Part shown: piece after piece, positions 30,252-34,401 of the stretch | How the letters are laid out: each line of letters starts with the position of its first letter | Position numbering within the stretch: the first letter of the stretch is position 1 | Assembly: GCA_001314815.1 (NCBI GenBank) | Contig: LJXT01000026.1 | Location: forward strand, 1-34,401 | Length of the DNA stretch: 34,401 nucleotides | Reading direction: 5' to 3' | DNA from: Algoriphagus marincola HL-49 | Lineage (GTDB): Bacteria; Bacteroidota; Bacteroidia; Cytophagales; Cyclobacteriaceae | The notes under the pieces: generated by a model | What the model was told of the DNA's origin: nothing | What the model saw: only the letters and a program-made list of their open reading frames with translations | The model's database searches: none | Translations under genes and position numbers: made by a program

Positions 30252-30625
30252 AATTTATAGCATTCTTGATTCTTTCTTTGGTTCTTGTTCTTCTTGTGAA
30301 TGGCGCCACATCCTACATTGGAGCAATGGCTGCGGTGATAGTGCTTGGAACTTTGATTCACCCTGGAAGCTTTGCCGCTTTTTTTGGGGGTGGCTTTGGG
30401 ATGGCATTAGCCTGGACTTCTTTGGCTCTATATTTGAAATTTTCTACAGGAAGTGATTTGCCTGAAAAAATGGGAGAGTTATTCGGAGTAAATTCCGCCC
30501 TGGCTATTCTACTGATCACGGCTGTCATCGGATTCGTACTGGGAGCCTTCAGTGGCCTAAGTGGTCACCTGTTTTGGAAAATGATTCGGAAAAAACCCAA
30601 TAATATCTACAGAGGTAATCCTTAG
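30248..30625 (+). CDS. Small polytopic membrane protein of unknown function
   Basis: This is a 125-residue, very hydrophobic protein with about four transmembrane segments (roughly 3-20, 23-42, 45-65, 84-112) and a short basic tail (KMIRKKPNNIYRGNP). Glycine-rich helices (FFGGGFGMALAW) suggest tight helix packing. No family is recognised. Its ATG overlaps the penicillin acylase stop (ATGA), so the two are probably translated together. A possible terminator overlaps its stop codon. Confidence 0.75.
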   Translation: MKFIAFLILSLVLVLLVNGATSYIGAMAAVIVLGTLIHPGSFAAFFGGGFGMALAWTSLALYLKFSTGSDLPEKMGELFGVNSALAILLITAVIGFVLGAFSGLSGHLFWKMIRKKPNNIYRGNP

Positions 30626-30645
30626 GATTAAATCAGGATTTTTTT
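30617..30645 (+). terminator. Probable terminator after the small membrane protein gene
   Basis: AATCCT (30617-30622) and AGGATT (30635-30640) enclose a 12-base loop and are followed by a run of T to 30645. The left arm lies in the last codons of the gene. The stem is short, so strength is uncertain. Confidence 0.5.
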
Positions 30646-30687
30646 GGCACAATTTTCCGATATATTAGTTTTTTAATTTGTTGAAAT

Positions 30688-30704
30688 GAGTACCTTTGGT
30701 ACTC
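30688..30704 (+). promoter_or_regulatory. Perfect palindrome over the -7 box of the winged-helix gene
   Basis: GAGTACC (30688-30694), TTT, GGTACTC (30698-30704) is a perfect 7-base inverted repeat. Its centre contains TACCTTTG (30691-30698), an exact Bacteroidota -7 box. The ATG at 30724 follows 19 bases later. The overlap makes this a good candidate operator, perhaps for the encoded winged-helix protein itself (inference). Confidence 0.5.
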
Positions 30705-30723
30705 GCTTTATATTTGATTTTTA

Positions 30724-31242
30724 ATGCTTGAGTCTCTTATTACCTCTAAAACACGGCTGAGACTTCTTGTGAAGTTTTTTGTAAATGACCAAAACCGAAG
30801 CCATTTGCGAGGATTGGCGGAGGAGTTTGGTGAATCTACTAATGCCATCAGAAAAGAGCTTAATAATTTAACTCAGGCCGGAATTTTGCTGAAAGAATCC
30901 AACAAAAATAAGATTGCATATAAAGCCAATACCCGTCACCCATTCTTCATCAATATTCAGGAAATAATCCGAAAATATCTTGGGTTGGATAGACTGTTGG
31001 AACATATACTAGACCGAATGGGAGATGTGGGTCAGGTAGTTTTGGTAGGAGATATTGCTAAAGGTATCGATACCGGTACTATCGACGTTTTGGTCACCGG
31101 TGATCAGTTAAATCAGGATTACATCAAAGGACTAAAATCGAGAATAGAGGAGCTAATCGAGCGGAAAGTAGTATTTACCCTTTCTAATGATCGATATGAA
31201 GAAGAAGGCTTAGTCCTTTTTGACCGTGCGGTTGGCGTTTAA
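30724..31242 (+). CDS. Winged-helix DNA-binding protein at the head of a polysaccharide locus
   Basis: This is a 172-residue cytoplasmic protein. The N-terminal 75 residues form an ArsR/MarR-like winged helix (SKTRLRLLVKFFVNDQNRSHLRGLAEEFGESTNAIRKELNNLTQAGIL). The C-terminal half (about 95-172; QVVLVGDIAKGIDTGTIDVLVTG...) looks like a nucleotidyltransferase-type fold, as seen in a Bacteroidota family found beside polysaccharide genes. Catalytic Asp pairs of true nucleotidyltransferases are not clear, so this half may be a sensor. It precedes the SLBB export gene by 65 bases, which suggests local control of exopolysaccharide synthesis (inference). Confidence 0.8.
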   Translation: MLESLITSKTRLRLLVKFFVNDQNRSHLRGLAEEFGESTNAIRKELNNLTQAGILLKESNKNKIAYKANTRHPFFINIQEIIRKYLGLDRLLEHILDRMGDVGQVVLVGDIAKGIDTGTIDVLVTGDQLNQDYIKGLKSRIEELIERKVVFTLSNDRYEEEGLVLFDRAVGV

Positions 31243-31307
31243 TTGACGCTTTTGTGCATGAATTACTCTTAGGTTTCATTTAGTAATGGGACTGAAAGGG
31301 CGAAGCT

Positions 31308-33995
31308 GTGTCCAGACTGTTATATTTAAAGATTAAAAGTTCAAATCAGATAAATTTTATCCAGGATCATTTGAAAAAATCAGTTGAAATATTTCGAAGT
31401 CAAATTCTGAAATCTTTTTGTTTTGCCTTTTTGGCTGTATTGATTTCATTTTCAATTCAAGCCCAGAGTCTATCCGATATTCAATCGGTCAAAGTAGACA
31501 ATCTATCCGATGCTCAGATAGAGAGTCTCATTAAGCGGGCAGAATCTAATGGTCTTTCGACAAATCAGCTAGCTGCTTTGGCAAGAGAGCGAGGTATGCC
31601 TGCCGCAGAAGTTGCTAAACTGCAGCAGCGAATCCAGCAGCTGCAAACTCAATCGCAAAACCCAAATTCTGACAATCCCAGTTCTGAAAGAGAAATGGGT
31701 TTTCAGCAGGAGGATGTGTTCGATTCTCTCAGAAGGTCAGACCCATATTACGATCTTACCCCAAAGCAAAAGAAGATATTTGGATATAAGCTTTTCCATA
31801 ATCGAAACTTGGATTTCAGCCCGAGTTTGAATCTTCCCACACCACAATCCTATGTAGTAGGAAGTGGGGATCAATTACTGATTGATGTTTACGGGGCCTC
31901 TCAGCAATCTTTCGATGTACAGGTGACTCCGGAAGGAAGGATATTTCTACCTAATGTGGGGCCTGTGCCAGTAGGAGGGGCAACGATTGAAGCTGCCACA
32001 GCAAGAATAAAAACGGAGCTGTCCAAGATATATTCAGGTCTGCAAGGAGGAAATCCCAACACCTTTTTGCAAATCAGGTTAGGTAATATCAGGTCGATTA
32101 AAGTTTCAATGGTGGGTGAATTGACCAAACCGGGAACCTACACCTTACCTTCTTTTGCCACTGTTTTCAATGCGCTTTATGCCGCTGGCGGTCCCAATGA
32201 AAATGGAGCTTTCAGAAAAATTCAAGTTTACAGAGGTTCTAAGCTAATTTCTCAGGTAGATATTTATGAATTCCTGTCTAAGGGGGACCAGTCAGCCAAT
32301 ATCAATCTTCAGGATAATGATGTGATCATTGTGCCAGCTGTGGAGGGCCGCGCCGAGGTGATAGGACCGGTCAATCGAGAAGGGTTATTTGAGGTCAAGT
32401 CTGGAGAGAGCTTAAAGGATTTATTTCTTTATACGGGTGGATTTTCCAGTCTGGCCTACAGGGACCGCGTGACAATTCGGAGAATAGAAGACAACCAACG
32501 GAAGATTATTGATGTCCCTTCTTCAGATTTTGGAAGCTTTTATCCGCAGGTTGGTGACGAAATTTTAATAGGTGAGGCATTGGATCGCTATTCAAATAGA
32601 GTGCAGATATCTGGATCTGTCATGCGTCCGGGCGAATTTTCACTTGAGGAGGGATTGACGGTCAAAGACCTGATCGAAAAAGCCGAAGGCCTTCGTCCAG
32701 AAGCTTTTACCAATCGAGTCACTTTATATCGAACCAGCGAGGATTTGACCTTGGCTGCTATCCCAGTAGAACTTTCAGAAATTCTGGCTGGCCATGAAGA
32801 AGATATTCCATTGAAAAATGAAGACCTTCTTTTCATTCCAAGTCGGTATGAAATCCAAGAGGAGTTTTATGTCAAAGTAAGTGGAGAGGTGAGTTTTCCG
32901 GGAACTTATCCATTTGCAACTTCCATGACTATTGGAGACTTGATTCTACGCGCCGGGGGCTTATTGGAGTCGGCAAGCAACTCATCCATTGAGATTGCTA
33001 GAAGAGTTAGAGATCCAAATAGTAGACAAATTGCAGAAATTTCAACCCTAGGTATAGGGCCAGAATTAGAGATTACAGAAGAGGAAAGACAGCTGCCTCT
33101 TCAGCCATTTGATCATGTTTTTATACGAAGAAGTCCGGGCTTTGAACAGGAGCAGATCATGACTGTCAGAGGAGAAGTGAAGTTCCCCGGAGAGTTTGTT
33201 ATTTCCTCGGCCAATGAGCGGATATCGGATGTCATCAAGCGAGCAGGTGGCTTGAGTGATTTTGCTTACCCCAAGGGAGCCAGTCTGATCAGAAGGACAG
33301 TGTATTATAAGGCTAAAACAGAGGAAGAAAAACGAGAAGAGACCTTAAAGGAAATCTATGATAGACTCAATCCAGAGACTAATCGAAATTTGAATGAGGC
33401 GGAAAAATTGCTTTTCGAAAGAGTAGATAAAAAACTAAAAGAAATCGAAGAGAAGAAACTTGACAAAGAAAATATAGTAAATGATACTCCATTGGATCAA
33501 ATTGTTTTCCAACAAGATTCTATTTCTAGGGATAAAGAAATCAGTGCTTCTAGGTTTAAGGAAGAAGATCTGGTAGGAATTGATTTGGAGCAGATCATGC
33601 AAAATCCCGGATCTTCGGCGGATCTCATTTTGATGGAAGGAGATATACTCCAAGTTCCTAAGCAGCTCCAAACCGTCAGAATGGTGGGAGAAGTATTGCT
33701 TCCAACAACAACTCGTTTTGAAGACAACAAATCCTTGAAACATTATATTTCTAAAGCAGGTGGATTTACAGAGCGAGGAAGGAAGAATAAAACTTATGTC
33801 GTTTATGCCAACGGAGATGCGGCTCAGACAAGAGGCTTTCTTGGCCTGAAGTTTTATCCTAGAATTGAGCCGGGTGCAGAAATAGTGGTGCCCCAAAAAC
33901 CTGATCGTGAGCGTATGAATGCAGCTAGTTGGATTGGAATCGCATCCAGTTTGGCCACCTTGGGGATTTTGATCGAAAGATTGATACAAAATTAA
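31308..33995 (+). CDS. SLBB-domain polysaccharide export protein (Wza-like)
   Basis: This is a protein of up to 895 residues. A Sec signal (KSFCFAFLAVLISFSIQAQ) ends near residue 53 of the longest frame. A Gln-rich region with low-complexity features (about 55-130) is followed by a polysaccharide-export domain (about 180-265; YVVGSGDQLLIDVYGASQQ). A series of SLBB domains follows (about 268-345, 347-425, 430-510, 520-600, 620-700 and 790-860), then a terminal hydrophobic helix (WIGIASSLATLGILIERL). It should form the outer-membrane or periplasm-spanning channel for exopolysaccharide or capsule. There is no suitable ATG: the longest frame starts at GTG 31308, and TTG 31371 would give a more normal signal peptide. 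A -7-like TATATTTA lies at 31321-31328, which favours the later start. Confidence 0.88.
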   Translation: MSRLLYLKIKSSNQINFIQDHLKKSVEIFRSQILKSFCFAFLAVLISFSIQAQSLSDIQSVKVDNLSDAQIESLIKRAESNGLSTNQLAALARERGMPAAEVAKLQQRIQQLQTQSQNPNSDNPSSEREMGFQQEDVFDSLRRSDPYYDLTPKQKKIFGYKLFHNRNLDFSPSLNLPTPQSYVVGSGDQLLIDVYGASQQSFDVQVTPEGRIFLPNVGPVPVGGATIEAATARIKTELSKIYSGLQGGNPNTFLQIRLGNIRSIKVSMVGELTKPGTYTLPSFATVFNALYAAGGPNENGAFRKIQVYRGSKLISQVDIYEFLSKGDQSANINLQDNDVIIVPAVEGRAEVIGPVNREGLFEVKSGESLKDLFLYTGGFSSLAYRDRVTIRRIEDNQRKIIDVPSSDFGSFYPQVGDEILIGEALDRYSNRVQISGSVMRPGEFSLEEGLTVKDLIEKAEGLRPEAFTNRVTLYRTSEDLTLAAIPVELSEILAGHEEDIPLKNEDLLFIPSRYEIQEEFYVKVSGEVSFPGTYPFATSMTIGDLILRAGGLLESASNSSIEIARRVRDPNSRQIAEISTLGIGPELEITEEERQLPLQPFDHVFIRRSPGFEQEQIMTVRGEVKFPGEFVISSANERISDVIKRAGGLSDFAYPKGASLIRRTVYYKAKTEEEKREETLKEIYDRLNPETNRNLNEAEKLLFERVDKKLKEIEEKKLDKENIVNDTPLDQIVFQQDSISRDKEISASRFKEEDLVGIDLEQIMQNPGSSADLILMEGDILQVPKQLQTVRMVGEVLLPTTTRFEDNKSLKHYISKAGGFTERGRKNKTYVVYANGDAAQTRGFLGLKFYPRIEPGAEIVVPQKPDRERMNAASWIGIASSLATLGILIERLIQN
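31321..31328 (+). promoter_or_regulatory. Possible -7 box of the SLBB export gene
   Basis: TATATTTA differs from TAnnTTTG at the last base. It lies 42 bases before the TTG at 31371. No -33 TTTG is evident, and the gene may instead be read from the promoter of the upstream winged-helix gene. Confidence 0.25.
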
Positions 33996-34017: not shown

Positions 34018-34401
34018 ATGAAAATTGCAGTAGTAGGTACAGGCTATGTAGGTTTGGTATCGGGTGCTTGTTTTGCAGATGTGGGTATCGAAGTTACCTG
34101 CGTGGATATTGATCAGAATAAGATCGATAAGCTGAAGAATGGAATCATGCCCATTTATGAGCCCGGGCTAGAGGAAATAGTCGTTCGGAATTATAAAAGC
34201 GGAAGACTTCATTTCAGCACGGATCTCGGAGAGGCAATTCAAGGTGCAGAAGTAGCATTTATTGCCGTCGGTACTCCTCCGGGAGAAGATGGATCAGCTG
34301 ATTTGAAATATGTCTTGGCAGTAGCGGATGAGATTGGCCAAAAAATGACTGATTACATCGTGGTGGCTACCAAGAGTACTGTACCGGTCACAACCGGAGA
34401 A
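34018..34401 (+). CDS. ugd: UDP-glucose 6-dehydrogenase, N-terminal part (runs off window)
   Basis: This is the first 128 residues of a UDP-glucose/GDP-mannose dehydrogenase. The Rossmann NAD-binding motif [16 protein letters not shown] is at 5-20, followed by [17 protein letters not shown] and the family block [28 protein letters not shown] near 80-97 and [13 protein letters not shown] near 115-127 are also typical. The enzyme oxidises UDP-glucose to UDP-glucuronate, a precursor for acidic exopolysaccharides. It starts 22 bases after the SLBB export gene, consistent with one locus. The specificity (UDP-glucose versus another UDP-sugar) depends on the missing C-terminal part. Confidence 0.92.

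Follow-up and report, generated by a model that had tools for sequence, protein, structure and literature searches.

The palindrome at 30688-30704 is probably the operator of the gene that stands behind it, bound by the regulator encoded there and used by that regulator to repress its own synthesis, a reading whose probability we put at roughly 0.8. It comes from the comparison of sequences and is supported because the arms of the site are conserved well above the surrounding sequence. The DNA analyzed here (the window) is a stretch of 34,401 nucleotides from Algoriphagus marincola HL-49. An earlier note on it had described a perfect 17-base palindrome that contains an exact -7 box and lies 19 bases before a winged-helix regulator gene opening a polysaccharide locus. 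Palindrome and box are indeed exact (Table 1), the 19 bases are 30705-30723, followed by the regulator's ATG at 30724, and the genes that come next encode an SLBB/Poly_export exporter and a UDP-glucose dehydrogenase.

Table 1. Features of the window around the palindrome, with the related sites of the source genome
Feature	Position	Strand	Basis and remarks
T-rich -33 region (weak)	30669..30674	+	TTT block of aligned loci; T run of the window starts one base later
Putative operator GAGTACCTTTGGTACTC (GAGTACC-TTT-GGTACTC)	30688..30704	.	core GAGTA-N7-TACTC; direct reading and conservation
-7 box TACCTTTG (TAnnTTTG) within the operator	30691..30698	+	direct reading; TAnnTTTG in relatives; consensus in PMC9723704
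Predicted transcription start	30703	+	-7 box taken as -12..-5 (PMC9723704); leader of 21 nt
Regulator gene, 172 aa	30724..31242	+	winged helix (~1-86) and nucleotidyltransferase-fold domain (~86-172) in a predicted model
Possible 5' arm GGTTTC, pairing with 31288-31293	31272..31277	+	covariation in 90 copies; weak in the window, with three G-U pairs (our own reading)
Leader element GGGACTGAAAGGGCGAAGC, 19-mer, ops-like candidate	31288..31306	+	between regulator and exporter; sequence comparisons
SLBB/Poly_export polysaccharide exporter, next gene	31308..33995	+	ORF and Pfam; may start further inside the ORF
UDP-glucose 6-dehydrogenase, incomplete at the window end	34018..34401	+	Pfam, NCBIfam
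Exact cores GAGTA-N7-TACTC of the source genome			window site; a pair close to a paralogous regulator and an ABC-2 transporter locus; a single one at a Wzc-like locus; another flanked by a Wzi gene and a second UDP-sugar dehydrogenase (names partly from our own reading of related ORFs)

The palindrome is significant because it is conserved, not because it is palindromic. The regulator was found in 19 of 38 genomes of relatives, and GAGTAC[CT]TTTGT[TG]ACTC stands directly before the start in all 15 orthologous loci from other genomes of the genus (L003-L016 and L020); a 130-bp reading of three loci from the same order showed the core in L017 and L019 but not in L018. A wider set consisted of the best 80 of 576 confirmed regulator relatives in named genomes, among them Algoriphagus, Belliella, Echinicola, Parapedobacter, Flavobacterium and Lutibacter. 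GAGTA-N7-TACTC lies within 300 bp upstream in 79 of these 80 loci, exactly in 52 and with one mismatch in the rest, counts that are not independent given the relatedness of the loci by descent; the single locus with no site over that distance is L132. Shuffled upstream sequences yielded the motif with one mismatch in 12 of 4000 cases and exactly in 0 of 4000. Among the named loci, 77 sites lie 12-24 bp from the regulator start. When the 79 sites, selected at no more than one arm mismatch, are aligned, eight of the ten arm columns are 100% conserved, the left arm is invariant and the central TTT is kept at 99%; the flanks mostly stay below 0.6 bits, except for the bases adjoining the site and a TTT that resembles a -33 element. 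The TAnnTTTG box is kept in 74 of the 79 sites, as tallied from the site list.

On these alignments the conserved core is a pair of five-base arms, GAGTA-N7-TACTC, and not the seven-base perfect arms of the window, because the right arm reads GTTACTC or GTTGCTC in most relatives; GGTACTC occurs there in two of the 79 sites (L090, from A. marincola, and L099). We rejected the full 17-mer arms as a search key: in the source genome (3.8 Mb, 93.8% complete) GAGTACC-N3-GGTACTC matched the window alone, and the core was therefore used for searches, with five exact occurrences in the same genome. The earlier note's searchable operator thus survives, with the shorter core as its key in place of the whole palindrome.

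In a phylum-wide sample of 296 genomes, the site and the regulator co-occur. The regulator family is present in 43 of these genomes, and its 49 matches gave 40 loci for analysis, 4 of them from Algoriphagus, after the exclusion of three window-type loci and one paralog that were known or already covered, and of five matches that were short or second ones. The exact core lies within 1.2 kb upstream in 32 of the 40 loci and a one-mismatch form in 5 more; L180, L205 and L212 have no site within one mismatch over the same 1.2 kb. At 300 bp the exact core precedes 29 of 34 regulator loci (an orientation filter removed 6 of the 40, all of which enter the 1.2-kb count) versus 1 of 3400 shuffles. The arms of these sites are constant and their N7 centre is highly variable. 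Conservation upstream of orthologues, one of the two conditions on which the earlier note had let its operator stand or fall, is therefore found within the genus, in the named genomes and in the phylum sample. The form YGAGTA-N7-TACTCR occurs in 33 of the 43 genomes with a regulator and in 67 of the remaining 253 (Fisher p 5e-10), and a reversed control pattern shows no such difference (24/43 versus 142/253, transcribed by hand from the scan output); the motif in those 67 genomes without a detected regulator represents either background or missed relatives. In many relatives' genomes the raw counts of the exact core are near those of the control, and location, not raw number, was therefore taken as evidence. 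A one-mismatch scan of the source genome was likewise set aside as background, with 61 matches versus 145 for the reversed control.

The site also has a defined place on the predicted promoter. In Flavobacterium psychrophilum the sigma-A box TAnnTTTG occupies -12 to -5, and leaders have a median length of 24 bp (PMC9723704). The predicted +1 of the window follows from the application of this box position, and relative to it the operator covers -15 to +2. The 79 aligned loci have a second conserved block, TTT (81-86%), which precedes the operator by 18-20 bases and, judged by its spacing of about 20 bases from the -7 box, would fit a -33 element; a sigma-70 promoter scan was uninformative for Bacteroidota. 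The window contains a second exact -7 box, TATATTTG at 30709-30716, which is absent from the nearest relative (L090).

The predicted structure of the regulator joins an ArsR-like winged helix to a nucleotidyltransferase-fold domain that lacks the usual catalytic motif. In its AlphaFold2 model (alignment A1, 16 sequences; mc083e2aeaf86; mean pLDDT 87.7), the N-terminal part superposes on BigR 3pqk with a VIA Z of 11.4 (rmsd 2.2, 88 aligned), residues 86-172 on 7bxo with a VIA Z of 10.1 (rmsd 2.5, 87 aligned) and residues 83-172 on 5yep with a Z of 10.1. The N-terminal fold resembles that of the ArsR/SmtB-type repressors BigR, SqrR, HlyU and SmtB (VIA Z 10-11 for the predicted model). In the ArsR/SmtB family the operator lies on the promoter of the regulator gene, and the putative operator of the present regulator has the same layout. 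It differs from that family in that its sequence contains no Cys, and hence no metal-sensing cysteines, in that it reaches none of the curated Pfam or NCBIfam cut-offs (NF033788, 17.4 bits versus a cut-off of 55), and in having the C-terminal nucleotidyltransferase-fold domain and standing at polysaccharide loci. The fold of model residues 86-172 is shared with the MNT-type minimal nucleotidyltransferases of HepT-MntA toxin-antitoxin pairs, chains of which give weak profile matches to the regulator (E 0.17). The usual catalytic motif of MNT enzymes is GSx(8-10)DxD; in its place the 16 aligned regulator sequences have GD...I(D/E/other), with GD invariant and the first Asp of DxD replaced. In a search of titles and abstract openings of the open-licence literature, we found no characterized member of this regulator family, no operator for it and no pairing of such an operator with the leader element described below.

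Behind the regulator, a relative of the window's exporter or dehydrogenase is among the next three ORFs in 52 of the 80 named loci and 10 of the 40 phylum loci. For 20 downstream genes hand-picked from the 58 loci without such a match, the next gene was polysaccharide-related or encoded a NusG-domain protein in 20 of 20 cases; they comprise polysaccharide and nucleotide-sugar enzymes, flippases, exporters, chain-length proteins, ABC-2 permeases and, right after the regulator in five loci (L142, L166, L201, L203 and L208), NusG-domain proteins (Pfam PF02357). Further loci in the list of downstream ORFs look similar, with a NusG-like gene after the regulator. The paralogous regulator (L021-L031 and L174-L176) mostly starts with TTG and sometimes with GTG, and is often preceded by an A/T-rich, repeat-like leader; some of its copies have a four-helix-bundle-like ORF in front, by our own reading.

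Within Algoriphagus, sequence comparison indicates that the site marks other polysaccharide promoters too, and so serves more than autoregulation. Sites precede a second UDP-sugar dehydrogenase gene in nine genomes, with TAnnTTTG inside 8 of the 9, and nine more stand at Wzc/manC-type loci of eight genomes; both groups were found via the motif itself, and their numbers therefore give no frequency of the site among such promoters. At the Wzc/manC-type loci an exact TAnnTTTG follows the site by 7-8 bp in seven cases and TATCTTTA takes its place in the other two, which puts the site upstream of the -7 box, at about -36 to -20; no TTG-like -33 consensus is visible at these nine promoters. The layout for autorepression seen by the earlier note thus stands as regards a site over the -7 box and the predicted start, and has to be widened to the other promoters of the genus. 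The number of sites in two genomes in which the regulator was not found, G002 and G006, had suggested a regulon there, which we rejected, as 11 of the 14 are located within ORFs of at least 80 aa. These sites (L213-L221 and L278-L281) often take the form GAGTAAAAAAAGTACTC inside ORFs, a coding coincidence to be reckoned with in motif searches.

Under the operator reading, an ArsR-like winged-helix dimer would bind GAGTA-N7-TACTC and, sitting on the -7 box and the start point (-15 to +2), would block sigma-A RNA polymerase. This block would limit the regulator's own synthesis and probably also that of the polysaccharide operon behind it, if regulator and exporter are co-transcribed. The regulator would be released by a signal, perhaps a nucleotide or a nucleotide sugar, that its C-terminal nucleotidyltransferase-fold domain reads, and the sites at a few other polysaccharide promoters of the genome would make up a small regulon.

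Other explanations of the site have to be weighed against this one. The regulator might bind as a dual or activating factor that represses its own start and activates where the site replaces the -33 element; this is unlikely, though it would account for the manC/Wzc-type promoters, where seven of nine sites are followed at 7-8 bp by an exact box with no TTG-like -33. A repressor over a weak -33 fits that geometry equally well, and the overlap with the -7 box at the regulator's own promoter and in 8 of 9 UDP-sugar-dehydrogenase-type sites favours blocking. It is considerably less probable that an unrelated regulator binds the site and controls polysaccharide loci including this gene. The motif does occur in 67 of the 253 genomes in which no relative of the regulator was detected, but it is tied to the regulator gene across differing gene neighbourhoods, and its strict form, GAGTACYTTTGTTRCTC, which the window's own site does not fit, occurs three times in the 296 genomes, each time 11-19 bp before the regulator gene and nowhere else. 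That the palindrome arose by chance on an ordinary -7 box has a negligible probability. Chance readily provides such a palindrome, since the window has two cases of perfect 7-base arms around a 3-base loop versus a mean of 3.0 in 20 window shuffles; conservation in 79 of 80 loci refutes this reading all the same.

A site that works as RNA, in the form of a leader hairpin or a terminator, is slightly more improbable than an unrelated binder. The window's 17-mer folds at -8.1 kcal/mol and its 61-nt stretch at -12.5 (z -3.0), with -11.3 (z -2.1) for the 61-nt stretch of L120; the window site was classed as terminator-like, and an A-to-G change in the right arm retains a G-U pair. Against this, orthologous 17-mers fold at just -2.2 and -2.9 kcal/mol, L091 has an unremarkable 61-nt stretch (z -0.75), and there is no covariation in the operator because the left arm is invariant in the 79 sites. 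The site moreover overlaps the -7 box, and the manC-type copies lie upstream of theirs and would not be transcribed from it. We rejected the hairpin and terminator readings on the weak folding of the orthologous 17-mers, the missing covariation and the -7 overlap, and retain the palindrome as the probable binding site of an autorepressor.

A second conserved element lies in the leader between the regulator and the exporter. The source genome has four copies of GGGACTGAAAGGGCGAAGC at up to three mismatches, each downstream of a GAGTA site. For a broader comparison we used 64 exact GAGTA sites, the first 41 hand-picked and the remaining 23 added; the set is complete for G000, G002, G004, G006, G009, G010, G016, G018 and G019, and from G147 and G229 it includes the YGAGTA-N7-TACTCR sites as listed. 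In 39 of the 64 a copy of the element with 0-4 mismatches lies to one side, no more than 750 bp away, and in the other 25 the best match has 7-8 mismatches, with no site between the two groups; the best match in shuffled sequence has 5-9. The element, G[GT]GACTGAnnGGGCGAAGC, accompanies 39 of the 50 sites from the nine genomes with a regulator versus 0 of 14 in G002 and G006. Most of the 11 sites without it in regulator-bearing genomes are located within ORFs, and a paralogous regulator follows two of them (G000:C82:26278 and G147:C6:217730). On the coding strand, it is present at up to three mismatches in 57 of the best 80 named loci. Its form GNGACYGANNNGGCGRAGC occurs 46 times in 16 of the 38 relatives versus 2 control matches, and 54 times in 40 of the 296 phylum genomes versus 7. 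The contexts read, from 30 of those 40 genomes, show that the element lies in leaders of surface-polysaccharide operons, with 5 of the 30 inside coding sequence, probably by chance; within about 1.2 kb there is a NusG-domain gene in 9 and the regulator in 7.

An arm upstream of the element covaries with it: CAC accompanies GTGAC in 26 of 46 elements versus 1 of 44, and YCC accompanies GGGAC in 19 of 44 versus 4 of 46. The pairing of each element with its own arm exceeds all 500 permutations over 90 copies; all these figures are inflated by relatedness. In Rfam no family reached the gathering score for the element in 13 loci, and window positions 30500-31500 gave sub-threshold, unrelated matches only. 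The element also precedes tail-sheath genes in two genomes (L252 and L254; element at 1501; PHROG tail sheath), and given these positions it may serve other long operons.

Systems known from other bacteria suggest what the element might do. It shares its place before long surface-polysaccharide operons with ops/JUMPstart and RfaH of Enterobacteria, UpxY of Bacteroides and the dfn hairpin of LoaP, and its GGGCGAAGC[TC]GTG portion resembles ops, the full sequence of which is GGCGGTAGCGTG. Single base numbers and hairpin details of ops are given in PMC5995543. The element differs in not being the ops sequence, in having no Rfam match, in occurring in Bacteroidota and in forming a longer conserved block with an upstream covarying arm. 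As in ops systems, it co-occurs with extra NusG-family genes: at least two NusG-domain genes are present in 36 of the 40 element-bearing genomes versus 121 of 256 others (Fisher p 2e-7; counts transcribed by hand from the scan output), or in 36 of 37 when three genomes with matches beginning GC or GA are dropped, as they were after inspection. The source genome has two NusG genes, one beside ribosomal-protein-like ORFs and the other a free-standing paralog of 170 aa, which is a candidate RfaH-like trans-acting factor. This paralog (L234 1489-2001, C95) lies between an ABC transporter and a purB-like gene, by our own gene naming.

Published work reports a role of UpxY in leaders (PMC7819879), divergent NusG paralogs in about half of Bacteroidota and, as of 2020, E. 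coli RfaH as the sole such protein with recruitment known in detail (PMC7593976); for LoaP of Bacillus, an RNA hairpin was described later (PMC12691694). Recruitment of a NusG paralog by the leader element is our leading guess, by analogy, because of the resemblance to ops and the role reported for UpxY; judged by location, co-occurrence and that resemblance, such recruitment may let the polymerase traverse the long operon. We found no published description of the element, the ops/UpxY literature included, in titles and abstract openings of open-licence papers. Taken together with the operator, the element leads us to a tentative proposal, held at less than even odds, of a two-stage switch at surface-polysaccharide operons of Bacteroidota. 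Initiation at GAGTA-N7-TACTC would be controlled by a winged-helix/pseudo-nucleotidyltransferase repressor that reads a nucleotide or nucleotide sugar, and the ops-like element would recruit a NusG paralog for elongation, this paralog being free-standing and RfaH-like in Algoriphagus and operon-encoded and UpxY-like in many Flavobacterium-type loci.

For the regulator family, the site would provide a searchable operator at polysaccharide loci in many Bacteroidota. The leader element, if it does recruit, would be a concrete candidate for how the NusG paralogs of Bacteroidota find their operons.
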